Shown here: one piece after another, positions 14,971-54,311 of the stretch
How the letters are laid out: each line of letters begins with the position of its first letter
How positions within the stretch are numbered: the first letter of the stretch is position 1
NCBI GenBank assembly: GCA_920105625.2
Contig: OV050030.1
Span: 96,985,152-97,049,151, forward strand
Direction of reading: 5' to 3'
Source of the DNA: Clusia tigrina
Taxonomy: Eukaryota > Arthropoda > Insecta > Diptera > Clusiidae
DNA length: 64,000 nt
Translations under genes and position numbers: made by a program
The notes under the pieces: model-generated
What the model saw: only the letters and a program-made list of their open reading frames with translations
Databases searched by the model: none
What the model was told of the DNA's origin: nothing

Positions 14971-15153
<183 letters not shown>

Positions 15154-15436: not shown

Positions 15437-15523
<87 letters not shown>
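15437..15523. repeat. (TA)n microsatellite
   Basis: About 87 bp of alternating TA, ending just left of the TIR element that starts at 15590. Between 15152 and 15436 there is no recognisable gene. Confidence 0.95.
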
Positions 15524-15525
<2 letters not shown>

Positions 15526-15589
15526 TCCGACAATACTACTAGTATTGAGCTGAAGGCTCCCGTCACATCGTACTCTTGCACTTAGATAA

Positions 15590-15703
15590 CACAGGTCTGC
15601 GAAAAAAAATTTTTTGTCAGCTGCATGAGATATTTTTACTGAATTATATGTTTTAAAGTGCGCTGATTTCAAAAGTGATGGCCATTTTTTTCTATCACAT
15701 AAG
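15590..15703. repeat. Left terminal and subterminal inverted repeat
   Basis: Starts CACAGGTCTGCGA and ends with the subterminal TATCACATAAG box. It pairs with 17860-17963. The 3' end of the transposase-like frame is about 115 bp inward. Confidence 0.75.
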
Positions 15704-15817
15704 GATTTTTTGCAAATTCAAACACAAAAAATTGGTTAAAGCACTCCTTTATTAAAAATTTTCAAACAATTAGTATTTTTTTTTTAAGCAAACGAAACAT
15801 TTTTTTGATACATATAC

Positions 15818-17521
15818 TTATTCATGTTCTTTATGAAACCTTTTCTTCTTTTCCTTGATACTTTGACGAGTCCTTTTCCGATTTCCATCTTCAGTTTCTC
15901 GCTTAAGCAGCCAACAGTAGTCAGCAAGCATAGTGACATCCCATCGCCCTTGGTACCTTCTCTCGATATCACGGACATCCTGGTGAAATCGCTCCCCCTG
16001 CTCTTCACTGTAAGCTCCCAGGTTTTCAGGAAAATAGTCTATGTGAGAGTGTAAAAAATGGACCTTCAAGCTCATCTTGCAGCCTTGAGCTTCGTATGCT
16101 GCTAGCATCCGTTGCACAATGGTTTTGTAGTTAGGATCCTTAGTATTTCCCAAAAACTTTCGCACTACGTCCTTGAACGATACCCAAGCTTCTTTTTCCT
16201 TCTCATTCATAGTTTCCACAAATGAAGGGTCCGTTAAAAGTGTTCTTATGTCGGGGCCGGTGAAAACCCCCTCTTTCAACTTTGCTTCTGACAGCTTCGG
16301 CAATTTTGTACATAAATATTTGAAACAGTCTCCATCCTTTTGCAGCGATTTTACAAATTGTTTCATCAACCCCAATTTGATATGGAGAGGGGGCAACAAA
16401 ACCTTTTCTGGTGGTACCAAGGTAGTGTTTATAACATTCTTCTCTCCAGGTTTTAAAGTTTCTCGGGATGGCCAATCACTTTTTTTCCAGTGCTGTTCTC
16501 TGGCTCTACTATCCCACAAGCATAAGAAGCATGGGTATTTGGTCCAGCCTGCCTGCTGACCCAAAAGCATTGTCAGTATTTTGAAGTCCCCACAAATCAT
16601 CCATTGATGGTCTTGATACTTGATTTTTTCCAGGATAATGGCCAAATCGTTATAATCTTCTTTCATATGCACTGAATGTCCAATCGGAATCGAGGCAAAT
16701 TTATTTCCATTGTGCAATAATACTGCTTTAAGGCTAGTCTTACTTGAGTCAATGAATAGGCGCCATTCAGATGAGTCATACTTTATATCACAGCGATGTA
16801 TGAGTTCTTCCACATTATTGCAGAAAACTAAATTTCCTTCTTTTGAGAAAAACTGGGTAAATTCTTTTTCTCGGTGTCTGTACCAGTAGAAAGAAGTGCC
16901 GGGTGATAAAAGGTTTTTATTTTTTAATCTAGAACCTAACAGTTCGGCTGCATCTTTTGAAAGACCTAAATCTCTTACTAAATCATTGAGCTCACCTTGA
17001 GCAAATAGTTGAGGCCTTCCATCTTCGTCAACAAAAATATCTGAGCTTGATTTACCCGGAGGAGATAATGTAGCTTCGTCCTCCAACTCACTAGGGTATT
17101 AATCCAAACTGGAAGGTGGCTGCGGGATAGATATCTCGGAGCTATGGGGCACTGGACGTATAGCTGAGTCAAGATTAGGATAACTTATGTTTCTTTTGTT
17201 TTTTGAATTGAATCCCTTAACGTTAACTGAGCAGAAGTAGCAGTCAGTAGTGTGATTTTTCTGCTCACGCCATATCATAGGAATTCCAAATCGAAATGCA
17301 TTTTTCTTTCCCTTAAACCACAAACGAAGATCTTCTTCGCATCTTCTACACACCTTATGCGGGGCCCATGGTTTATCTTGATCACCAAGTTTTAATTTAA
17401 AGTAGGCAAAATAAACTTTCCTTACAAAATCACTTATATTTCTCTGTTGACTTTTAATAGTGAATTCACCACAGATATAATAAAAACTGTTTGGAGAAAT
17501 AACACAACCCCTTGTAGCCAT
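15818..17521 (-). pseudogene. Transposase-like protein, 567 codons with one in-frame stop
   Basis: Begins with ATG at 17521 and runs in a single frame to 15818, broken only by TAA at 17099-17101. N-terminal part (140 aa): a cysteine-rich region with CRRCEEDLRLW and a later HTTDCYFC, likely zinc-binding, then a Pro-rich hinge (RPVPHSSEISIPQPP). In the 422-aa part: FIDSSKTSLKAVLLHNG (Asp 113), CGDFKILTMLLG (Asp 167), PCFLCLWDSR (a CxxC at 186-189), PPLHIKLGLMK (His 235), HFLHSHIDYFPENLGAYSEE (acid residues 361-365), and a Lys/Arg-rich C-terminus. I recall similar uncharacterised multi-copy proteins in many arthropods but cannot name the family. The D-D-CxxC-E order suits an RNase H-fold transposase (inference). 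The bounding TIRs support this. Probably inactive here unless the stop is read through or wrong. Confidence 0.7.
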
Positions 17522-17859
17522 GATTAACAGACAACAGCACTATTCACTTGAATATCAGTATGTATACTGAGAGCTTTTCTTTGTTTCAAGCGATATACGT
17601 CATTTGACTTGTCTCAACCAGAGAATACCTTTCAAAGGTATTCAGAAGTAAACGAAGGCACTTGTGCGTGTTAGGTTGTACAGAGAGTAAATGAGTGTAG
17701 CAATAGACAATGGATAAAGCGAAAAGCAATATGTTAGTATGAGTAAAAAATTGGTTGCCATGCAAAGGAACGCTGTTGAACGGCGGAATTATAGGGAAAT
17801 ATGTACATATATACTGGTTTATTACCAATGAACATAGATGCTGCAAATAAACATAAAAA

Positions 17860-17963
17860 CTTATGTGATATAAAAATTTGAATATTTTTTCTGTTTTGGG
17901 GAGGTCAAAATCTGTAAGAAAATGTAAAAAAATCCTATGCAGTTTTTTGGTCGCAGACCTGTG
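17860..17963. repeat. Right terminal and subterminal inverted repeat
   Basis: Complement of the left end: the subterminal box CTTATGTGATA at 17860-17870 and the terminal TCGCAGACCTGTG at 17951-17963. About 340 bp separate the box from the gene start at 17521. That stretch is unassigned and may hold the element promoter. Confidence 0.75.
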
Positions 17964-17966
17964 TAA

Positions 17967-19321: not shown

Positions 19322-20315
19322 TAAAAGTCAGGTGCAGTAAGGTCCGGTATCAGCTTATTGGGAAATTTTCGTCGCAATTCTGTCATAACAGGCCGGGCTA
19401 TTGCACCATCTTGCTGAAACCACACTGAGTTGAAAGTAATTCTCATTCGGCGTAATTCTGGATAGAAAAAGTCTCTCAACATGGCCAAGTAACGGTCTCC
19501 AGTAACCGTAACGGTGTGACCGAACTGAAGGGTTTCGATGGTAAGGTCTTCTGTTGACTGTCCCATGCTCGGCAAAATTGTTTACAAGTCTCATTATGGT
19601 CCAACAATGCAGCGTGATGAAACTGCACACCACACTGTAACACGAAGTGGATGTAATTCCGTCTCATGGAGTATCTGTGGGTTGGAAGCACTCCACATTC
19701 GACAATTTTGTTTATTTATGTTGCCGTTTAAATCGAAATGGGCCTCGTCAGACATAAAAAGACAGTTGATCATGTTTCCGTCCTCTTCCACCATTTGAAG
19801 CATCTTCTGGCAAAATTCCAAGCGAATCGGGAAGTCTGCTGCGTTCAATTTGTTGGCCATTTGCATTTTATATGGGAATAAGTCCAAATCTTTATGCATA
19901 ATTGACTGCAATGACTGTCTGCTTATACCCATTTGAGCAGATAAGCTTCTTGTCGAAACTCTTGGATTATTTTGTATGGCAGCAGCTACTGCAGCGATTG
20001 TTTCCTCCGTCCGATCTAAAGGGTTTCGATGGTAAGGTCTTCTGTTGACTGTCCCATGCTCGGCAAAATTGTTTACAAGTCTCATTATGGTCCATCTGCT
20101 CGGTGGATTGCCGCCAAACGTGCGCCTGTACTCCCTTTGAACCGCAACTACGGACTCCAGTGCGTGATAGCGGCGGACAATCCAAATTCTTGTTTCAGTG
20201 TCCCAGTTATCCATTTTTGATAAATCTAACAATCAATCTGCAAAATACCAGATTCATTAAATAGAAAAAAAGTTATTACATTTTTTTTTGGTAGCGGCTT
20301 TCATCAGCCACCTTG
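19322..20315 (-). pseudogene. mariner-superfamily transposase with DUF4817-type N-terminus, rearranged
   Basis: The minus strand from 20214 reads MDNWDTETRIWIVRRYHALE, VAVQREYRRTFGGNPPSRWT, then IMRLVNNFAEHGTV: the helix-turn-helix N-terminus common to insect DUF4817 transposases. Catalytic landmarks follow: MSDEAHFDLNG (first Asp) and FNSVWFQQDGA (second Asp, after the rearrangement). The frame ends at about 19322 in LTAPDF, so the third acidic residue and the 3' TIR are gone. The right end keeps its TIR (CAAGGTGGCTGATGAAAGCC on the minus strand from 20315) next to a TA target site. At 19528-19603 a 76-bp copy of 20019-20094 has been pasted in, breaking the frame. It sits inside the Polinton phospholipase-like gene. 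Confidence 0.85.
19528..19603 (-). repeat. 76-bp ectopic copy of an upstream transposase segment
   Basis: Identical to 20019-20094 over all 76 bases, in the same orientation. The junction at GGACCAT is shared by both contexts, suggesting a microhomology template switch. Confidence 0.9.
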
Positions 20316-21497: not shown

Positions 21498-21966
21498 ATA
21501 GGAAAAATTAATGAAAAACTTTTAAAAGATATAATTAAGACCAGAAGCATATTAAGAAAAAAATTCAAGAGTATTAGGTTGGGGGAAGCAGATGCAGAAA
21601 ACCTTTTCGAAGATACATTCAAACCTATTACTAAACCACTGAATGAATTAATTGAAAAGACCAAAGCAACTGATGCAAATAACACAACAATCGATGGAAA
21701 TGAATATGATTTTAAGTTTGATAGGAAGACAAGTACTCCAATCAAAAGAAGTCAATCACATTTGTTGAGTAAAATCAAAGTTCAAGATATTGCTGACTGT
21801 AATGTGGATGATACTTTTTTCAGTCAAGGAAGCAACACAAACTCAAATTAGTCAAAATTACAAACAAATTTAACACATTTGGAAAAGAGTGGTCAACTAG
21901 ATAAACTATATGGAACACATAAAGATTTAAATGGTGCATGGAGATTTGGTGGTAGTGCTTTTAAAA
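21498..21966 (+). pseudogene. Polinton PY-like protein
   Basis: An open frame from 21498 reads EKLLKDIIKTRSILRKKFKS, then LGEADAENLFEDTFKPITKP, with the FKPITKPL box typical of the Polinton protein that follows the ATPase. It is polar and Lys-rich, with an SQSHLLSKI segment. A TAG at 21849-21851 interrupts it; the same frame continues with LEKSGQLDKLYGTHKDLN and GAWRFGG, a short C-terminal domain. It ends at about 21966. Its place directly after the ATPase end, in the same direction, matches Polinton gene order. Its exact role (minor virion protein) is inferred from the family. Confidence 0.7.
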
Positions 21967-22229
21967 TTTCTTCGTGCAAAAATTGCGTTCGTTACATGCG
22001 TGCACTGATGTAGCAAGTCATGTGACCACTACCGTCTACACGTCTCAAACCAGCTTGACCATTTGAACGCATTGAACGGCATCGATTTTTGCGAGCCAAC
22101 AAATACTTATTTGCGAATCAGAGCAAAACCTCCTATCAAATCATACTTGGCTGTTTCGGACTTCTCAACAAAGTCTTTCTAACAACACTCTAAAGCGCAT
22201 GGGTGATCGGCACCACGAATTTTGCTCAA

Positions 22230-24189: not shown

Positions 24190-26469
24190 CGTTTCCATAC
24201 CAGTGACATAGGGTAGGTTAGGCTGCGAAGGCGTGGGCGGATACGAAAAATCGGCACTTCTCCAAGAAGAGTGAAGAAGCACGACCCAAAACATTGAAGT
24301 CCTTCCAAGTGTAGTCTTGGACATTGACATAAAAAGTGATGAATCGAGTCTATCTCTTCTTCATCATGTCAACTCCTGCATAACCCGGTCGATGGAATAC
24401 GCCAACGTTGAAGCATTGGTGCGATAGCACAATGCCTTGTAATGACCCCCGTAAGCACTTTTACTGCAGGTTTGTTGAGCCCTAAGAGAACCATTGTTCT
24501 CTTCATGTCTAACCTAGGCCATAAGGCCCGTGAGACCTCACAATCGTCACAATTAGTCCATAAGTTGTTTGTCACTGCAATAGTGAATCTTCCGTTTTAT
24601 TTCGCTCAAATTTGTACAATGTCCATAGTTGGCAGATTTTGACGCGTTGCACTCCCTTAGTCTAAGAGCACACTTGGCGGCACAACCCTGAATTAACACC
24701 CCTAGTTTGAAGAGGTGAAACTTCTTGAGGCGCGCTACTTACAGCCCCTGAAATTCCCAGGCTGGCAAGTCTTTGTACTTTTCTAATACGGCTAAGATTA
24801 TATTTCCTTCGCAACGCCTTCCACTAGACGATGGACCCGTTGGTGATAATTGGTTTTATGATTGTGGTGTACATCCCATACACAATGTACGGTAAAAATC
24901 CCCATTTTTCTCAAATATCGTTTTACAGGTATAGTATGCAGCCAAACCCTTCTTTGTTCTCTCCTCAATATTCCTTCTCCGATTTAACTTGGAGTCTAGA
25001 ATGGTACCTAAGTATCTCGCTTCTGAAGAAAGATTCAACGTTACCCTACCTAATTTTGGCAAAGGGAACTCAGGGATTTTTATTTTCCTGGTGAATAAAA
25101 CTAACTCCGTCTTAGTAGGGCTAACTCCTAAGCCGTTGCGATCAGCCCATCCGGCAATCTCACACAGTGCTGATTCCATGAGTTCGCCAATCGTTGACAA
25201 GAACTTGGGCGGGATTAGTATGACAACGTGATTAGCGTAGACAACATTTGTTATCTTTGCTTTGAAGGTTCCTAATATCTCCGTTACTACTCGAAGCTAT
25301 AGGAGAGGTGACAGAACTTCCCCCCCTGCGGGGTACCCCTTGTAGGCCTACTATTCACCTAGGTTGTCTCCATAGTGGCGTTGACGACCCTGCTTACTAA
25401 CATTGTGTCAATCGTTGTCACTATGAATTCTTTGACTCCGTGATCTCTCAGCGCCTTGCAGATCGCCTCTGTGTTTACGATGCCCCTCAATATCCAGTAA
25501 AGCCACCAAATTGAAATCCTTATAGTTGATAGCCCTCTCAATGATACCAACCACTTCATGAAGTGCGCTATCCACTGATCTATCCTTACAGTATGCGTGT
25601 TGCGCGATATCCATTATGCGAATATTCGTAGCCCTTCTAATATACAAATCGATGCTTCTCAAGTGTTTAAAGAATAAACGATGAGAGATTTATTGGTCTG
25701 TAATCCTTGGCAGTAGAGTGATTTATTTTTCCCGCTTTTGGAATGGAAACGACCCTGACTTCTCTCCAACTTTTTGGAACGTACCCATCCTTGAGACACT
25801 TTGTGAAGATGTGAACTAGATGAGGAATCATGCCCTCAGCATAATGTTGCAACATGGCCGGTAGAACTATATAATAATATAATGTGTATATAAAAATATA
25901 TGGGTCGCAGGAACCTATCGCCCAAGCAACACGTCGTTCCTTGACACACGGGCAAGATTTATCAACTGCGTATCGACGGCGCGTGCAACCGGTGCCTCAT
26001 TGACCGTCTCCAGAGCTCCGCAGAAATGCTGCCAGGACTCCCTCTTCGCAGCATTAATTTGACTTTTGTTTTCATTAAAACTGACTAGTTTCCCAAATCC
26101 TCTTCCAGCCGACTATTATTGGACTTGTTGAAGAGTCCTCTTGATTTATTCCTAAAAAGACCTAATTCTGCATTCCACCAAACCGCAACAAACTAGGCTT
26201 GTGCCTGTGCTCGCATACCACCGTTGTAAGGTCTCCAGTGCTGTGTGGAGCAAGACGAAAAATATTAATATCGTTCTTAGCAACTATACCTTGATCTTAC
26301 TTTGTGTCTGTGGAATGCAGAGGCGATAACCATCCATCCCGAGTCCGTTTACCTTACCTTTGACGAGCCAAGGCTCTTGGACAATGGCTACGTTCACATC
26401 GTCTTCCGCGGTAAAATTAACTAAATCGAGTGAGGCTGAGAAGGAGTGATGCAAATTAATTTGCACCAC
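24190..26469 (-). pseudogene. I/LOA-type pol relic (copy B)
   Basis: Minus strand. 26469-26284 is the endonuclease N-terminus (QINLHHSFSASLDLV, VAIVQEPWLVKGK). Most of the endonuclease is deleted. 25855-25667 gives VPKSWREVRVVSIPKAGKIN, TAKDYRPINLS. 25660-25408 gives AYCKDRSVDSALHEVVGII and FNLVALLDIEG. 25231-24856 gives the palm with VVYANHVVILI, where both Asp of Y-x-D-D are replaced (Asn, His), then ADRNGLGVSPTKTELVLFTR. 24575-24369 is the RNase H tail (LNKPAVKVLTGVITRHCAIA). Frameshifts split every block. It retains the palm-to-tail region that copies A and D lack, which helps to define their deletions. Confidence 0.8.
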
Positions 26470-28250: not shown

Positions 28251-29574
28251 TACGAGGTTTGATCAAAAAATAACCGTTATTTTAAATTTTTTCAAAAAGT
28301 ATTTATTTATTCATCAACTATCTTGTGCCCTTCAAAGTAATTCCCCTCAGATATAATACACTTATGCCAGCGTTTTTTCCAATCCTCGAAACACTTCTGA
28401 AACGCTTTTTTTGGTATCGCCAACAGCTCCTGTTTCGATTTTTCTTTTATCTGCTCAATCGTAGCAAAATGCTTTCCTTTCATCGGTGTCTTCAGTTTTG
28501 GAAAGAGGAAAAAGTCAGCGGGGGCGAAGTCCGGTGAATACGGTGGTTGAGGCATGATAACGGTTTTGTTTTTGGCCAAAAAATTACGCACAAGCATTGA
28601 TGTGTGAGCTGGTGCGTTATCATGGTGCAAAATCCATGATTGGTTTTTCCACAATTCTGGGCGTTTCTGACGAATTGCTTCTCGCAAACGGCGCATAACT
28701 TCAAGGTAGTATTCCTTGTTGACCGTACGACCTTGTGGCAAGAATTCATGATGCACCACGCCATTGCAATCAAAGAAAACTGTCAGCAAAACCTTTACGT
28801 TCGACCGAACTTGATGTGCTTTTTTCGACCTTGGCTCATCTGGACGTTTCCATTGGGATGATTGGGCTTTGGTTTCAATATCATAGCCATACACCCACGA
28901 TTCGTCAACCGTTATGATCTTTTGGAGGAAATCTGGATCGTCGTTGACGATGTTCAACAGCTCCTGAGCGATGTCCATGCGACGTTGTTTTTGCTCAAAA
29001 TTTAGCAATTTTGGAACAATCTTAGCTGCCGCACGTTTCATGCCTAAAACATCCGTAAAAATTGCTTGGCATAACCGAACGATATGCCAACATCATCAGC
29101 AACCTCTCTGATAGTGATTCGACGATTATCCAAAATCATTTTCTTCACAGCATCAATGTTTTCATCGGTTGTTGACGTGCTCGGGCGACCAGGACGAGCA
29201 TCGTCATTGACATCTTCTCGGCCTTCCTTAAACCGGTTATACCACAATTGAACTTGTGTTCTGCTCGAAGTAGACTCGCCAAAGGCCACAGTCAACATTT
29301 CAAATGTCCTTGCGCATTTAATTTCATTTTTTACACAAAACTGAATACAGTTTCTTTGATCCATTTTTTCGAATAGTACAAAATCGAAGAGCACACCAAA
29401 ACACGACTAACCTTTTTATCGGTCAAAAACAAACTGACAATCCAAAATGGTTGGTATTGCCAACATATATAACAGACATGTGTACCAACATAACAGAAAA
29501 AAAAATGCGAACATCGAACATACGTAACTCATGAAATTTGAAAATAACGGTTATTTTTTTTATCACACCTCGTA
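28251..29574 (-). mobile_element. Nearly complete mariner, 1320 bp
   Basis: Ends CGAGGT at 28253 and ACCTCG at 29572 are inverted, and the TIR continues over about 30 bp (common core AATAACCGTTATTTT). TA target duplications flank both ends (28251-28252, 29573-29574). It is inserted in a gypsy-type gag. Confidence 0.9.
28307..29364 (-). pseudogene. mariner transposase, one frameshift
   Basis: Starts at ATG 29364 (MDQRNCIQFCVKNEIKCART). Helix-turn-helix region: ESTSSRTQVQLWYNRFKEGR and the GRPSTS linker. A one-base frameshift near 29050-29090 ends the first frame; the second runs 29041-28307. Catalytic residues in the second frame are Asp 46 (ITVDESW), Asp 141 (HHDNAPAHT) and Asp 176 (SPDFAPADFFLFPKLK), with 34 residues between the last two: the mariner DD34D signature. 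WVYGYD precedes the core as usual. Only the frameshift prevents a full-length product, so the copy is fairly young. It would cut and paste at TA sites in the nucleus. Confidence 0.9.
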
Positions 29575-43106: not shown

Positions 43107-45926
43107 TTAATTTCTAATATGTCTCTTGTGTACAATTCTTCCGCTTTCGGTGACTATTGTACAATTCCTGTTTTCTTTTACTATTTCTTCTTTAAATCGC
43201 TCTGATAATTTTGTCCCTAATCTCTTATTGATTTTAACGAAGACTGTCTGGCCTGGAATGTATTGTTGGTCGTTTTGTTTCCGTTTGTTATGATATTCTA
43301 AACTACGTTTCTGTTTTTCTTGGATTTTCTCCATATTCGACTGTCTAGTTCTGTCATAGCTACCTGGAGAAAAATCTACAGTTCTCCCAAAAAACAAATC
43401 AACAGGTTTCCTCTCAACAGTCGAGTGTATCGAATGATTATACTCGTTCACTGCTTTTTCAAGGAGTTCTTCGAAATTTCTGCATACCCCTTCGTCCTTT
43501 AAACATCTTAACAATTCAGCAAGGGTTGAATGAAATCTTTCGACTTGACCGTTTGCTTCGCTTCTGTAAGGAGGAGTAGTGAACACTTCGATGTTCAATT
43601 CATCCCTCATCATAAACAGAATAGTGGCGGAATTCAGAGACGTCTCATTATCGATGACGATAGTTTTTGGTACGCCAAAGAAGAATAGGAGTTCTCTTAG
43701 GGGTCTTCTCACATCCTCAATAGATTTTCCCGTTAACAATTTAACTTGTGCGTACTTGGTGAATTTATCCAAGGCTGTCATTACCAATTTTTTGTCTGTT
43801 GAAAATATGTCAATATGCACTACCTGGCCGGGATATGAGGGTATAGGCGTTTCCCCTAACTTCGGATCATTGGGGTGCCTATCGTATTTCTTCTTCTTCC
43901 ATGTTGAGCAAAGTTTCACTATTCTCTTTATCTTGGCAAACATGCCTGGGAAATAACACTTCTCCAAAATCTGTAATTTATTTTCCGCTGCATTTCTGTG
44001 GGCCCTGTTGTGAGTATCAATAATGACATTTTCCTGGTCATTTTCTGAGGTCACGTCCTCCACGAATTTTTGTGTGAAGCGAACCTTATAATTCAACAAG
44101 TGCAGAGGATAGATTTCCTGGATTTTACCCATTACAAATTCTGGTGCCTTTATACCATTATTCATAGAGTTGTTCAAGGATCTTTTCAATAAGGCTTCTT
44201 TTCTGATCATGCTCCCTTTCTACAATTGTATGTCTATGATACCCAGGGAATATAATTTGGAATTGATATGACGGCACTTCGTCCACACAAAGGAATATCT
44301 GATTTTTGAATGCATTTATAGGACCCTCCACGCTGGGTACCAAATTTTCCGCAGAACTTTCATGGCTATGAACGGTTCCAGTTAAAGAGTTCACATTGGT
44401 CATTGGTGTTCTAGAGAGAGCATCTGCTACCACGTTAGATTTCCCTGGTTTGTACCTAATTTCATTGTTATATTCCTCGAGAATCGCCTTCCACCTTTTC
44501 ATCTTGACATTACTATTTTTGTTACTCAGTGCATATGTTAGGGGCTGGTGGTCAGTGTAAATTATAATTCTAGCAGTTCCATATAGGTAGTTTCTGAAGA
44601 TCTGTAGGGACCATACTATAGCTAGCATCTCTCTCTCATTTGTAGCATAGTTTTCCTCCGTTTCCGACAATACTCTGGAAATAAATGCTATTGGCCTATC
44701 GTCCTGGCTAAGCACGGCTCCGAGGGCTACGTTGGAGGCATCGGTCGTTAGATGAAATTCTCGTAGTTTGGGTAAAAAAGCATAACTTCTCGAGATAATA
44801 AAGCCTCCTTTAAAGAATCCATTGCCTTCATTTCCTTACAACCGAGTACTATTTTTACTTTGCTGGACTCGGACCTGGGAATTGAACCATTTGGGCCCCT
44901 CAGCATAGCAGTTAGGGGTTTAGCTTTATCGGCATAACCCTTTATGAATCTTCTATAGTAATTGCAAAGCCCCAAAAAAGATCTTAATTGCCTCAAAGTT
45001 TTAGGGTAAGGAATTCTTACCATGGCATCCACTCTGTCCTTTATTATACTTATGCCACTCTCAGATACTTTGAAACCAAGAAATTCAACTTCTCTTTTAA
45101 AGAAGACGCATTTATCTAACTGCACTCTCATATTTGCCTCTGCCAACGTACAAAAGATTTCCTTCAAATGTTTAAAATGTGATTCTTCGTCTTTACTGAA
45201 TATAATTATGTCATCGATATAGACATAACAAGTCCTTCCGATGAAGTTTCTTAGCCTTGTGAGCTCGTACTTCCCATTGTTCACTGAGAATGCCGTTTTC
45301 TCGATGTCTTCTTGCCTGAGCGGTATTTGATGAAAACCACTTTTCAGATCAATTACCGTAAAGAATTTGTTGCCGCCCAGTTGAGATAAAACTTCCCCAA
45401 CTTCTGGTATTGGATATTTGTCTGCTACAGTAACCGCATTCAATTTTATAAAATCCACTACGACTCTGTACTTCCTCTTTCCAGATGCATCCTCTTTTTT
45501 CGGCACGACCCGTATGGGTGAATTATAGGGAGAATGAGATGGTCTTATGATCCCGTCTTTTAATAATTTGCTTATTTCTTCCTCGACAACATTTTTCAGA
45601 GCCATTGGGTAAGGATAGTTTCTTGTGTAAGTAGGCTCGTCCGTGGTTGTACGAATTTCACCCTGTACTCTCGTTGTGTAAGTTAATTTTTCATCAGGAT
45701 CTGCAAAAAGATTCTTGTGAGATTCTATGATTTTCATCATAGTTGATGTTTGGTTCTCAGAAAGGTGTTCAACTCGTATTTCCAGATTGTTCACGTCCTG
45801 CGACATATATTGGTAAATTGGTATTTTCATACCATTCGTTATTGTAAAGTAATTATCAGCTGTGTGAATGATTGCAGAAAGTTCCTTCAAGGTATCATTA
45901 CCTAGTATTGCATCAAAAGTCCGCAA
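43107..45926 (-). pseudogene. Errantivirus RT, RNase H and integrase, broken
   Basis: 45926-44748: end of protease, RT with VVDFIKLNAVTVADKYPIPE, FFTVIDLKSGFHQIPL and catalytic VYIDDIIIFSKDEE. About 24 residues expected between TRL and the YIDD box are missing without loss of frame. A frameshift near 44755 leads to RNase H (44715-44158: IIIYTDHQPLTYAL, KPGKSNVVADALSR). A second frameshift near 44165 leads to integrase (44158-43107): the zinc motif has H-H-C but its last Cys is Trp (LCSTWKKKKYDRHP). Catalytic Asp (VHIDIFSTD), Asp (VIDNETSLN) and Glu (ANGQVERFHS) are present. A GKT/chromodomain-free tail ends at 43107. Confidence 0.9.
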
Positions 45927-46165
45927 TCCAGGTAGAAGGAAAAATTTAATAGGTTCAATAGAATCACCAAATATCCTTAGTAAGGTGTGGTGTGTAATTT
46001 TAACATTGCCAGATATTGTTTTAACGCAGAAGTAGTCGCAATTTTTTTGAGGATTATTTGCCAGATCAGACTTAATATAATTCTTATTGCTACCAGTGTC
46101 CAGAAGGAATTTCAGTATTTTTCCGTTCCCCGTTCTTTTCTTAAAGTATGGTAACGAGGAACTGT
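45927..46165 (-). pseudogene. Errantivirus protease region
   Basis: Lies in the -1 frame relative to gag. KILKFLLDTGSNKNYIKSDL carries the aspartic protease active site; NCDYFCVKTISGNVKI and LRTFDAILGNDTL complete the domain. The frame is open through to RT, so the protease itself looks intact. Listed as part of a broken pol. Confidence 0.8.
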
Positions 46166-47578
46166 TTAACCAAAAAAATTAAGATCCGCATTAAGATCTT
46201 CAGTAGAAAAATCTTCCACTAGACTGTCCGAGGTTTTTACGTCCTCTCCTGAATAGTGTGTTAGTTCATTAATATATTCATTATTGGCCACATCCATGTA
46301 TTCATTTATATCCGGTACACCTCCTACAGCTCCTTCGAGTGCTTCAATTTCTTTGTCAATTTTTGGATTATCCACTTCGCTGCCTCCTCTGTTGCAATTA
46401 CCCTCTGTTCTTAAATGAAAGTTTCGTTGAGCCTTGTTGATTGGTCCTTGGAACGTACCTTCATAAGGCCTCTTATAACCATTATTGACCGGCGGTCTGT
46501 TGACATAATTTATCTGCCTAGATTGGGTGGACCGATCAATTTCCATCGGTTCCGGATTTGTAGGATATTGTTGATAATTTCGCGGATATCCTTGAGGTCT
46601 TTGATTCATGTTAGTGAACTGGTAATTTTGTTGACGGGGTTGATACTGAATATTCGGCCCATTCCTTGTCCTTGGTATGAATCGTGGTGGCAATTGTGGT
46701 CTGGTTGGAGTTCCCCCATGAGCGAGTTCAGGATAAAAAATATTTCTGGTGAATACCTGAGGATTTGGTTTGTATCCCTGCGCGTTTGGCTTAGGTATCT
46801 GCCCGTGAGCATGATGCATCCGATAAGTCATATTGTCCAATTTTAAACAGATGTGTAATGCCTGTGGCAAAGATGTGGGTTCCTTGACGCTTAATAGTCT
46901 TGGCAATTCGCCTTTCAGCCCACGCACGAAGGTATCAAGTGCTTTTTCTCTATAAGCGTTTGTCATTGAAGAAAGGCTACCTGTGTCCAGTTCAAGACAA
47001 GTTATCTTGTCCAATATTAGCGATAGGTGTTGGTACACCGCTTGATAGAATTCTGTTATGGTTTTGTGTCCTTGACACATGGTTGTCATCTGATATTCAA
47101 GTGTACCAATATCTCTCCTATCGGAGTAATGCATCATTAGACACTTTCTTATCTTGACCCAGTCTAGAGGTGTTCTGTATGAATCAAGAGCAGTGTCTGC
47201 TTCCCCAGTAATTTTTGTCCGTATTGTATGGAGAATGGCAAAATATCTTCCAGTACCTTTAATGCTTTCGAAAAGCTCCAGTACCCTTTCTACCGATTTC
47301 CGCCATGAACCGAATTCGCCCGCAATTCCCGAAAATTCTCTTAGTGATCTAACAATATCGGGAATTTTGTCCAATTCTTCGATACGAATTGCTCCTATAG
47401 GTTGATCCCCTCCTTCATCAGGGGTGTCCTGTTTGAAGTAATCCAACACTATAGTTCTAACTTCCTCCTTTTGAGCTTGAGAGAGTCCACTGGAACTAGT
47501 GCTAGGCCTCTGTGGTTGGCTCATTGTGAGGGTTCTACTTAGTCTGTCCGTAATCTCTTCGATACTGTCAACTGGCAT
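46166..47578 (-). CDS. Errantivirus Gag, intact 470 codons
   Basis: ATG at 47578, stop TAA at 46166-46168. The N-terminus is Ser/Thr-rich. The capsid part has IVRSLREFSGIAGEFGSWRK and SVERVLELFESIKGTG, with ILHTIRTKITGEADTALDSY and ALDTFVRGLKGELPRLL, typical of gypsy-group capsids. A Pro/Asn/Gln-rich nucleocapsid-like region follows (PEPMEIDRSTQSRQINYVNR), then an acidic C-terminus. There is no CCHC knuckle, as usual for errantiviruses. It is the only long undamaged gene of this element. It overlaps the protease frame through a slippery site. The product assembles particles and packages RNA. Confidence 0.9.
   Translation of the reverse strand: MPVDSIEEITDRLSRTLTMSQPQRPSTSSSGLSQAQKEEVRTIVLDYFKQDTPDEGGDQPIGAIRIEELDKIPDIVRSLREFSGIAGEFGSWRKSVERVLELFESIKGTGRYFAILHTIRTKITGEADTALDSYRTPLDWVKIRKCLMMHYSDRRDIGTLEYQMTTMCQGHKTITEFYQAVYQHLSLILDKITCLELDTGSLSSMTNAYREKALDTFVRGLKGELPRLLSVKEPTSLPQALHICLKLDNMTYRMHHAHGQIPKPNAQGYKPNPQVFTRNIFYPELAHGGTPTRPQLPPRFIPRTRNGPNIQYQPRQQNYQFTNMNQRPQGYPRNYQQYPTNPEPMEIDRSTQSRQINYVNRPPVNNGYKRPYEGTFQGPINKAQRNFHLRTEGNCNRGGSEVDNPKIDKEIEALEGAVGGVPDINEYMDVANNEYINELTHYSGEDVKTSDSLVEDFSTEDLNADLNFFG
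46172..46178 (-). promoter_or_regulatory. Candidate -1 ribosomal frameshift site (U7)
   Basis: In the gag frame the last codons are AAT TTT TTT GGT TAA. The heptamer T-TTT-TTT fits the X-XXY-YYZ slippery rule, and slipping by -1 enters the open protease/RT frame with no intervening stop. Confidence 0.7.
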
Positions 47579-49098: not shown

Positions 49099-50135
49099 AT
49101 GGTGGACTCGTATATTTCGGCGGCAGATGAACTTCTGATGTTCATAAGTCCATTATATCACTTCAACTTGATGAAGCAGAATTGGATGCTCGGGGGGCTT
49201 CGCTTAAAACGGGAAAAATAACTGCCATGTCCGAGGCGCGGGTCATGAAAGACGGTGAATCACTGTTAGAGTAAATCGGACAGCGGTTCGAGTCAAGTTT
49301 TGATACTTGTAAGCGGGGTCGTATTTTGATCGCGGAAGTGAGACAACGTTTAGAGCAGGCAACTCCCGTTCCTACTACAGGGGAGCCATTTTAATCATTG
49401 CTGTGCGCCATCCACGTACCCCCTTGTGATATCCCTGCCTTTGAAGGGAGTTATGATGCATGGCCAACGTTCCGTGACATGTTTACAGCACTATTCATTA
49501 ACAACACGCGGCTGTCTAATGCGGAGAAATTCTACCATTTGTCCCTTAAGACCCGGGGAGAACCACATGAAATTGTCTCCAAAATTCCAATTACTGAGGC
49601 GGGTTTTCAGCAAGTGTGGGAAAACTTACTGGAGCGCTACAACAACAAGCGCATCCAGATCAACAGCCAATTGAAGACACTGTTGGGCCTTGACCCGGTT
49701 AGAAGAGAAGATGGTGGGAAAATTAAACGCCTACAGCGTGAGATCGGTAACTGTATCGCTGCACTGACATCTTACGGCATCGACGTTGCGAGTTGGGATG
49801 CCATTTTAGTATACTTGTGCTCCATGCGGCTGCCTGAGCTCACACTGTCCCTGTGGGAACAGACCATGGGGGGCCGCGCAGATATTCCAGAATGGAAGGC
49901 GATGGATGACTTCTTGTCATTGCGGTTTCATACACTCGAGGCGATTTCGGATCTCCGGTCGCAAGGCTCCAGTTCATCACAAATAAGGGTTCAGCCGAAT
50001 CAACCGCGAACAGCACGGGTGCAAACCCATCCAGTAAGTGTTACCCCGGAAGGGTGCAAAGTGTGCAGGCGGTCTGCACACTCGGTGTGAAATTGTCCTG
50101 CGTTCCATTCCGCCACCGTATCAGCTCGGTGGGGC
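49099..50135 (+). pseudogene. BEL Gag
   Basis: From ATG 49099 an N-terminal region is read in broken frames. 49398-50090 is a 230-codon frame with the Pao-type capsid: FEGSYDAWPTFRDMFTALFI, LSNAEKFYHLSLKTRGEPHE, YNNKRIQINSQLKTLLGL, EIGNCIAALTSYGIDVASWD. A TGA at 50088-50090 interrupts it just after the first zinc-knuckle half (CKVCRRSAHSV). The same frame continues into VRKHGLCVNCLSASHRVANC. Gag and pol are therefore one long frame broken by single stops, as usual for BEL. The product would form the particle and bind RNA. Confidence 0.85.
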
Positions 50136-51660
50136 TTGGTGCGCAAACACGGGTTGTGTGTGAATTGCTTGTCAGCTTCACATAGAGTGGCAAATTGCCC
50201 CAGCTCCTTTTCGTGCTCCACCTGTCGGGAGCGGCACCACACTCTGCTGCATACGGACTCGCCACGGGGTCGTCCAACCGCTGCGACGCTAAACCCACCA
50301 TCCACATCGGGGAGGGGACGCTCCAATTCAAATGGACGCTCCTCCCTGGTCCATCCACCCGTACCCAAGTCTTCTTACCACACTGCGCAGGTATCGCGTC
50401 CGGCAGATAGGGCGGGGCCGAGTCCAAGTCATCCAAGCCTCTCCAATCGTGTTATCTTGGGTACGGCCTTAGTCACGATAAAACATCAAGGAGTATGGTA
50501 CACAGCCCGGGCTCTGATAGATTCTGGTTCTGAGGGGTCCTTTGTTTCGGACCGCCTCCAAAAGCGCCTTAAGCTGCCGGCGCGCTCAGTACATGCCCAG
50601 GTATCGGGGGTCAGCAATACCCTTGCTGGCACCGTTACCAAAGCATGTCATAACACCATCGGGTCGCGGTACGATGCCACTGTGCGTCTCCAAGTATCGG
50701 CTTTGGTGTTGCCTACCCTGACAGGTGAACTGCCGCCGCTCCTATTGAGTAAAGGAGAGCAACACAAACTGAGACATTTCAGGTTAGCCGATTCAAGCAC
50801 TTCACACTCCACCCAAGTCGATTTGTTAATCGGAGGGGATCTTTACCCTCAGGTCTTGCTTGATGGGTTGCGGCGCAACCTGGTGGGGTCACTAATTGCC
50901 CAAGAAACGGTATTCGGCTGGATCCTTACAGGGCCTCTGCCGGATAAACGGATATCCACTTTCACAACTCGCGTGCAAGTGTCTGAAACTGCATCGCTCG
51001 ACCACCTTCTACGACAGTTCTGGGAAATGGAACAGCCTCCGCAAGATCGAAAGCTGTCCCAGACTGATCAAGACTGCCTTAATTTGTACTCCCAGACTAC
51101 TCGTCGGGATGCTACGGGGCGATACATAGTCTCTCTGCCGTTCAAACAAGGGTTTGTTCCGGAGAAGTCTCTAGGAGCGTCGCGCTATATTGCCCTTCGG
51201 CAATTTGAGCGCAATGAGTCCCGGCTGGTAAAGAGCCCGGCTGATAAGCGAATTAAATCACATGCGCAAGGTTCCACCGCCGTCAGTAACTCCTGTGCCT
51301 CATTATTACTTGCCACATCATGCAGTAATTAAGCCAGAGAGTACAACCACCAAACTTCGCGTGGTGTTCAATGACTCACAGGCGACTTCCAACACGGTCA
51401 GCTTGAATGATGTGTTACACACAGGGCCAGTGTTACAAGCCGATCTGACCCGGCTAATAATCCAGTGGCGTATGTTTCGCTATGTCCTGAACGGGGATAT
51501 ACAAAAGATGTATCGTCAGATTCTGGTTGAGCCAAGCCAGGCATCATACCAGAGAATTGTGTTTAGGGAATCTCCCGACAGCGATATCTCTGACTATGAA
51601 TTGAAAAGGTCACCTTCGGGGTGAATTGTGCTCCTTATCTTGCAATAAGGACACTTTTGC
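50136..51660 (+). pseudogene. BEL zinc knuckles, protease and RT start
   Basis: 50136-51332 is a 398-codon frame: CVNCLSASHRVANC and CSTCRERHHTLLH (zinc knuckles), a Pro/Ser-rich hinge, the protease with ARALIDSGSEGSFVSDRL (active Asp) and LLIGGDLYPQVL, then the DUF1758-like region into LPFKQGFVPEKSLGAS. A frameshift at about 51270 leads to 51262-51624, the RT fingers and palm A: YLPHHAVIKPESTTTKLRVV, FNDSQATSNTVSLNDVLHTG, MFRYVLNGDIQKMYRQILVE. Another break follows at about 51620. Confidence 0.85.
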
Positions 51661-53365
51661 AATTGGCAGACGAGCAGGTTCCCATTGGCTTCTCAGGTGC
51701 TACGTAATTCGATGTACGTGGATGATGCTCTAGTGGGTACACATGATATTGCTACTGCCATTCGCACTAGGGATGAGCTGATTGAGAGCTTGGATTCAGC
51801 CGGGTTCTAAATGCGAAAATGGGCAGCAAATTCTCCAGAAATTTTATCCGGTTTGCCTCCAGGAAATCTGCTTAGGGAAGATTTTCTCCAATTCGAGGAG
51901 ACCAGCACCACTCGCACTTTGGGCATTCGATGGAATGCGCGGGGGGATTGGTTTTGTTTCCACGTGGCAGCTTAGCCAATCGTTGCCGTATACACCAAAC
52001 GTAAGGCCCTGTCGGTCATCGCACAGCTGTTTGACCCAGCGGGATGGTTGACTCCTATTGTCATCTCCGCTAAGATCTTGACGCAACGGATATGGTTGGA
52101 TCAAATAGGTTGGGACTAGCAACTTACTCCTACCACTTTAACAAGGTGGACACACTTCTTATCACAGTATCAGGCAATCTCCCAAGTACGCGTGCCTCGC
52201 TGGGTACGATCTGCACCTGATCGCGATATTGAGTTCCACACCTTCTGTGATGCTTCTCAGCTAGCATATACCTGCAGCCCTTTACGTTCGGTGTAAAGGT
52301 GAAAATTCCATCTCTACCCATTTGCTAGTGGCGAAATCGCGGGTGGCCCCATTGAGAACTATCTCTCTTCCACGTTTAGAACTATGTGGGGCAACACTTT
52401 TAGCAGAGCTGATTTTCCCTCTTAAACCTCTATTAAATATTTCAGATGACAACTTGTTTTGTTGGTCCGACTCTACGATTGTGTTGGCATGGCTGCGAAA
52501 GCCACCCCACGTGTGGAAAGTCTTCGTGGCGAATCGAGTCACTGCCATTACCAGCAAAGGAGGTGTGAACAACTGGCGTCATGTCCGCTCAGAAGATAAC
52601 CCAGCAGATTTAGCTAGCCGTGGTGTGGTACCTGATGCACTACTCCACAACAAGCTCTGGTGGGAAGGCCCGGCCTGGCTGCAGCAAGAGTGGAAACGGT
52701 GGCCGCCTCCGTTGGACGAAAACGTGTTAGCAACCGATGAAGAGCAACGACCTGCAAAGTGTCATGTAGTATATGTGTCCTCTGCGGACGACCCAATGTT
52801 GCGCTTCTCCTCATTTTCTAGGGCCCTCCGAGTGTTGAGTTTCGTGCGCCGCTTTATGCGCCACTGTTCGGTGAAACATCGGGACACGACTCCTGACAGG
52901 GGGTCCCCGCTTACTCGGGGAGAAATCGCTGAATTGACCACTTGCCTTATTGTGCTCGCGCAGAAAATGTATTTCCCAAAAGAATACAGCGCACTTGTGA
53001 CACGGGAGCCGATATCCAGCTCCAGTTCGCTTTTGGCTCTGAATCCGTGCGTGCACTCCGATGGTACTCTGCGCGTAAATGGTCGGTTGGCGCTCACTAC
53101 ACATTTGCCATTTTCGGAGAGACACCCGATCATTCTGCCATACTATGGTCATTTGACTCGTCTAATAGTGAAGTTCATCCATCAGGTGTCCCTACACGGG
53201 GGGAATCAACTAATGCTGCGGCTAATCCGGACCCAATATTGGATTCCAAAAGCGAAAACGCTCATTAAAAGCACAATTCTCCAATGTAAGACAAGTATTC
53301 TGTGGAAGAAGCGTCGACAACAGCAGCTCATGGCAGCTCTTCCGGTTGAACGTACCACGTGTTGA
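51661..53365 (+). pseudogene. BEL RT palm, RNase H and integrase N-terminus
   Basis: 51700-51800 gives SMYVDDALVG, with the intact Y-V-D-D catalytic box, and the helix after it. Several stops and frameshifts follow to 52320. 52322-53365 is a 347-codon frame: PRLELCGATLLAEL and FCWSDSTIVLAWLRKPPHVW (RNase H with Asp), HVRSEDNPADLASRG, then LVKFIHQVSLHGGNQLMLRL and IRTQYWIPKAKTLIKSTILQ, the His-His-Cys-Cys zone of integrase. It stops just after that at 53363-53365. Confidence 0.85.
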
Positions 53366-54311
53366 CGTCCTTTTACTAATACTGGAGTTGATTTCGCGGG
53401 GCCGTTTGATATCAAGCACTATAAGGGGCGGGCATGCCACGTTACGAAGGGGTATGTCTGCATCTTTGTATGCTTCGCTACGAGAGCAGTTCACCTTGAG
53501 GCGACTACCGATTTGAGTACTCCTGCCTTCCTTGCGGCATTGTCTCGGTTTATCGCCCGCCGGGGATGTCCTTTGAAAATGCACTCGGAAATTGGTCGGA
53601 ACTTTGTGGGCGCGGAAAAGGCGTTGAGGCTTGATTTCCAGCGGGTGCTCCGCGAAATCCGTGACCGAACCGTGGTGGGTCACTTTCATACTCAGATCGA
53701 GTGGGATTTTAATCCCCCCCATGCTCCACATATGGGGGGGCCTTTGGGAAGCAGCGGTCAAGAGCTTCAAGCACCATTTCAAGCGCATGGCAGGGCAACT
53801 TAAATACACGTTTGAAGAATTTGTGACTCTCTTAGCGCGCATCGAGGCGTGTCTTAATTCTAGGCCTATCAGCGCTCTGTCTGAGGACCCCACGGATCTC
53901 CAAGCGCTGACGCCTGGTCATTTCTTGGTGGGTGCGCCACTGTTGGCACCAGCTGAGCCTCCGGATACAACACCCTTTCTCTCAATTTTGAACCGATGGC
54001 AAAAACTGAAGGCGCTGGCCCATCAATTCAGCGTCGGGTGGAAAAACGAATATCTTCTCGAGTGTCAACGGCGGAGTAAGTGGCGGACGGCTCAAGTGAA
54101 TGTCAAGGTGGGTGAGTTAGTGGTTGTGCGGGAAGACAACCTAGCGCCTCAAGAATGGCGGCTGGGCAGGGTCACCGATACGCACCCTGGTCCTGATGGA
54201 AAAGTGCGTGTTGTGGATGTGCGGACCGCACGTGGAATGCTAACCCGACCTATCACGAAGGTGGTGATCCTACCGGGAGAAGAGCCGCCTCCTACCAGCG
54301 GAGGGGTATAA
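53366..54311 (+). pseudogene. BEL integrase core and C-terminus
   Basis: 53390-53800: TGVDFAGPFDIKHY (first catalytic Asp), FATRAVHLEATTDLSTPAFL, then KMHSEIGRNFVGA, where the usual second catalytic Asp is Glu and the following residues are altered. A frameshift near 53720 leads to 53725-54311: GGLWEAAVKSFKHHFKRMAG (catalytic Glu), LLARIEACLNSRPISALSED, LTPGHFLVGAPL, NRWQKLKALAHQF and the C-terminal VKVGELVVVREDNLAPQEWR. With the Asp substitution and frameshift, this copy cannot integrate. Confidence 0.85.

Follow-up and report, generated by a model that had tools for sequence, protein, structure and literature searches.

A broken Chapaev3-type DNA transposon from Clusia tigrina, its dispersed copies and its predicted RAG1-like transposase

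The element described here occupies 2,374 bp (positions 15590..17963, coding strand minus) of a 64,000-nucleotide stretch of contig OV050030.1 of the fly Clusia tigrina, the whole of which is referred to below as the window, and its ends are common to copies elsewhere in the same genome. With a probability of about 95%, it is a broken copy from a recently active family of cut-and-paste transposons belonging to the Chapaev3 group of the CMC (CACTA-Mirage-Chapaev) elements. In the 2014 study of Chapaev3 elements, CAC/GTG ends are ascribed to Chapaev elements, and Chapaev3 elements in particular are said to duplicate a TWA that lies between an A and a T and to encode transposases with C(2)C, LH and H(4)H motifs (PMC4079192). 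The same three hallmarks are found in the present family, whose termini are CAC/GTG, whose target is TWA between A and T, and whose protein carries C(2)C, LH and H(4)H together with DDE residues. Because its ends, target and motifs are the published hallmarks of Chapaev3, the first-pass annotation, which had suspected a CMC-like relative from the sequence of the window alone, was right about the kind of transposon: terminal inverted repeats (TIRs), 3-bp TAA or TTA duplications and a predicted CMC/RAG-like DDE transposase are all present.

Element ends, genomic copies and target sites

The element is bounded by a perfect 13-bp TIR, CACAGGTCTGCGA at 15590..15602 (plus strand) and its partner at 17951..17963 (minus strand), and comparison of the flanks identifies a TAA target-site duplication on the left (15587..15589) and on the right (17964..17966; both unstranded). 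An exact 11-bp subterminal inverted repeat lies further inward, with TATCACATAAG at 15693..15703 (plus strand) starting 104 bp from the left end and its partner at 17860..17870 (minus strand) starting 94 bp from the right end. Both repeats and the possible TAA duplication had been noticed on the first pass and stand as described, while the gapped extension of the TIR that was reported with them is weak: inside the 13 bp the ends diverge, and the sole word that they have in common, CTGCAT, occurs at unequal offsets. As a control for the subterminal repeat, 3,000 segments of 2,374 bp were drawn at random from the window, and inverted matches of four-letter 11-mers were sought in bases 15-220 of both ends; a match occurred in 27/3,000 segments, and at approximately equal distance from both ends in 3/3,000. 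Long AT dinucleotide runs adjoin the element on the left (window 15000-15150 and 15437-15523).

When the organism's own genome, 1.21 Gb in 666 contigs, was searched, 50 matches were obtained; 40 of the 82 candidates were scored, so that the copy counts are lower bounds. In all 11 near-full-length copies the first base corresponds to 15590, and 10 of them end at 17963 or one base short of it, so that similarity ends at the boundaries of the element, a point on which the first-pass annotation had staked its proposal. Twenty-four copy loci were taken with their flanks (L009-L032, the window copy being L009); both ends were present in 19, one end was missing in L016, L024, L025, L029 and L032, and the removal of L012 and L028 as duplicates left 17 independent two-ended copies, including L010 despite its mutated right end. 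The 3-bp flanks are identical in 14 of these 17 copies (the probability that two 3-mers agree by chance in the window is 0.018) and unmatched in L021, L027 and L031. Thirteen of the 14 matching flanks are TAA or TTA, the remaining one being TTT in L015, and the duplication is preceded by A and followed by T in 12 of the 14, or in 11 of the 13 with TWA. The termini read CAC...GTG in 15/17 copies, with point changes at the right end of L010 and at both ends of L021. In L016, which lies outside the 17-copy count, two CTGT words delimit a loss of 47 bp at the right end, after which GTG adjoins TTA, and TTA still flanks both sides.

Uninterrupted targets, a search for which had been proposed as a check, were found for three insertions. 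The L011 insertion sits in repeated sequence. Of 78 candidate places for its joined flanks 40 were scored, and in every one the flanks run on uninterrupted, the whole 300-base query being covered in 34; the three sequences that were read are all gap-free with a single TTA. The site of L015 (TTT) is uninterrupted in L058 and at window 24787-25187, and that of L013 is uninterrupted at window 21771-21969, where the target letters of the relative differ, so that a single TAA is not demonstrated there. L011 and L012, about 21 kb apart, have the same insertion site, with approximately 500 bp of left flank in common and only 40 bp of right flank, an arrangement which may reflect duplication or spread with a host repeat.

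The unit delimited by the 13-bp TIRs has moved as a whole, usually into A-TWA-T targets, and duplicates 3 bp when it inserts. Dispersal extends to deletion derivatives: L026-L030 share the junction of a single internal deletion at four different places (L028 duplicates L026), and L022 and L023 have another deletion in common. Divergence from the majority sequence is 0.67-1.24% among the 11 near-full-length copies, with a pairwise median of 1.8%, and the family was active recently. Only L016 among the 11 retains an unbroken 567-residue frame, and it may supply transposase while being itself immobile.

The predicted transposase and its assignment to Chapaev3

The frame enclosed by the repeats (15818..17521, minus strand) is intronless and, as the first reading of the window had claimed, 567 codons long, but that reading did not mention the premature in-frame TAA at codon 141 (17099..17101, minus strand) which breaks the window copy; an unbroken relative, P0001, is 98% identical. 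The frame is predicted to encode a DDE transposase with the motif order D, D, C(2)C, LH, H(4)H, E, and the order of Asp, Asp, CxxC and acidic residue and the N-terminal cysteines noted earlier are indeed there. All of the motif residues are encoded on the minus strand and are invariant in an alignment of 78 sequences. The first catalytic Asp, D258 (16748..16750), lies in a model strand spanning residues 253-259, and the second, D312 (16586..16588), directly follows model strand 308-311; then come C331 and C334 of the C(2)C motif (16520..16531), L379 and H380 of the LH motif (16382..16387), H488 and H493 of the H(4)H motif (16043..16060) and the most likely catalytic Glu, E507 (16001..16003), the first residue of model helix 507-522.

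The N-terminal cysteine-rich region (17231..17506, minus strand) is a candidate Chapa domain. In relatives, cysteines pair as CxxC at residues 14/17, 58/61 and 94/97; residue 14, which is Cys in at least 90% of them, is Tyr in the window copy. Similarity of this region to zf-AD is weak: 36/78 family members match at E <= 0.1, 14/78 in a second, overlapping set match at E <= 0.01 (best 7.7e-4), and the N-terminal piece of the window protein scores 13.7 bits, below the cut-off of 28. A relationship of the N-terminal domain to zf-AD may be regarded as a lead.

The fold prediction suggested on the first pass gave a predicted CMC/RAG-like DDE transposase with a pLDDT (predicted local distance difference test score) of 88.9, in which a RAG1-type RNase H core contains a predicted zinc-binding helical insert, and the best structural match is RAG1 among the best 50 matches listed per search. 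A sequence search of the PDB returned nothing meaningful, and no relative was confirmed in the viral contigs that were scanned. The catalytic cores of Transib transposase and RAG1 have the overall fold that is predicted for that of the window transposase, with 12-15% identity in the aligned rows. Transib elements generate 5-bp duplications (PMC4411706), whereas those found here are 3 bp, and no RAG2-like second frame such as would recall the RAG1 system was seen in the window element.

Published members of the group are similar in several respects. Garfield, Merrow and Conan resemble the window element in that they have CAC/GTG ends, deletion derivatives and the motifs C(2)C, LH and H(4)H and duplicate TWA where it stands between A and T, the comparison covering these features and size. 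Merrow and Garfield, when complete, measure 2,289-2,455 bp and encode transposases of 554-562 residues, which brackets the length of the present element and approaches its 567 residues; their transposases have two exons, whereas the window element is intronless and most other Chapaev3 elements have one exon, and Conan_ET is shorter (1,865 bp, 461 residues) (PMC4079192). For a wider clade, CA..TG ends are described along with the motifs C(2)C and H(3-4)H (PMC12730594), and Chapaev3 has been grouped with Transib and RAG1, with mention of an N-terminal Chapa zinc finger (PMC4411706). Two Chapaev3 families of another fly, the blowfly Calliphora vicina, are Chapaev3-1_CV and Chapaev3-2_CV, which belong to the same group as the window element; only short fragments of them are listed, the longest apparently measuring 1,075 and 302 bp (PMC3630058).

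The first-pass annotation considered the element possibly undescribed. As a kind of transposon it is not, because Chapaev3 elements were credited to Repbase Reports of 2007-2008 in the reference list of PMC4411706 and were studied again in 2014 (PMC4079192); the particular family may be unnamed, no paper on it having been found in a literature search that had Repbase outside its range. An undescribed superfamily, kin to CMC and Transib and lying outside Chapaev3, might be suggested by the window protein, which has no Pfam or NCBIfam family at the curated cut-off, and by its relatives, of which 3,153 were found at E <= 0.001 and none of the 120 listed carries a precomputed Pfam domain. Against this, the testable Chapaev3 hallmarks (ends, TWA between A and T, and the three motifs, as given in PMC4079192) are all present, and we consider such a superfamily very improbable.

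The TWA duplications also invite comparison with the PIF/Harbinger transposons, whose target is TWA. Canonical Harbinger elements give 3-bp duplications (PMC12730594), but the ends of the window element are CAC/GTG, C(2)C and H(4)H sit between the second D and the E, the top fold matches are RAG1, and the element has a single frame. The Harbinger-type DDE transposase corresponds to Pfam DDE_Tnp_4. At E <= 0.1 the 78 members match 15 Pfam families, none of them of that type, which is not proof; taken together, these observations leave a Harbinger origin with hardly any probability. A domesticated host gene lying by chance between inverted repeats, which a very large protein family conserved in animals might suggest, is scarcely credible when the copies are dispersed with sharp ends, duplications and empty sites and 10 of the 11 near-full-length copies have no intact frame.

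Related families and a proposed mechanism

A protein search of the same genome gave 103 matches, 77 of 2,370 candidates being scored, and revealed a second Chapaev3-like family (family B) with ends CACTGCGCAACA at 7/13 loci, all of which carry one 12-bp end with minor variation; ends of this type were not found at L046, L047, L048, L049, L053 and L058. Two of five additional loci have further end sets, CACTGTTC in L067 and CACTGTTCAAGTT in L069, and no convincing ends were found at L068, L070 and L071. Boundaries were picked by a required flank match (TWA for family B, any A/T 3-mer for L067 and L069), so that the duplications at these loci are not independent evidence, and the recurrence of the ends alone is.

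Three of the seven family B loci (L051, L055 and L057) have a subterminal inverted repeat approximately 94-107 bp from the ends, or 72 bp on one side of L055, whose sequence differs from that of the window element. No such repeat at the 11-bp level is present in L050, L052, L054 and L056, none of at least 9 bp lies in the first 250 bp of L067, and L069 has a long inverted repeat in its place. Subterminal repeats were accordingly rejected as a general rule, and their presence in two families of this genome may be regarded as a lead.

The ends of Transib and RAG1 substrates begin with CAC, and cleavage in both systems proceeds by nicking and hairpin formation on the flank. The Chapaev3-type transposase would bind the terminal CAC repeats, its N-terminal zinc region perhaps binding the subterminal repeats, and would cut 5' of CAC through a RAG1-like DDE site (D258, D312 and E507) in an RNase H fold that carries a helical, zinc-binding insert, by analogy with nicking and a hairpin on the flank; the 3' ends would then be joined to the target with a 3-bp stagger. 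The deletion derivatives would presumably be mobilised in trans by the transposase of other copies. A more speculative and rather unlikely extension is that Chapaev3 ends are built of two parts, a CAC repeat served by the RAG1-like core and a repeat some 95-105 bp inward served by a ZAD-related N-terminal zinc domain. If this were true, the two-part ends would be the long-spacer counterpart of the RAG1 heptamer and nonamer, and there would be a possible link of ZAD (zf-AD) domains, an insect domain, to transposons.

Neighbouring elements and significance

Elsewhere in the window, a fragment of a mariner-like transposase (28307-29041), matched by Pfam Transposase_1 and DDE_3, is enclosed by a pair of 19-bp inverted repeats, AAAAAATAACCGTTATTTT, at window 28265-29559, and a minus-strand frame at 19594-20232 with a Pfam DUF4817 helix-turn-helix match is perhaps a transposon fragment. 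Frames at window 43107-47578 (minus strand) and 49398-54311 (mainly plus strand) resemble a gag/pol-like retroelement by eye; the only one of them that was scanned, 46166-47578, had no Pfam match.

As the discovery of a kind of transposon, the present result is ordinary. Its significance is that a large, animal-wide and previously unnamed protein family is now tied to transposon ends, a link which had been anticipated on the first pass and has been borne out, so that annotators can drop the label of uncharacterised gene for its members. In addition, the structure predicted with confidence for a Chapaev3-type transposase, with its RAG1-like core, is relevant to the deep history of the V(D)J recombinase.
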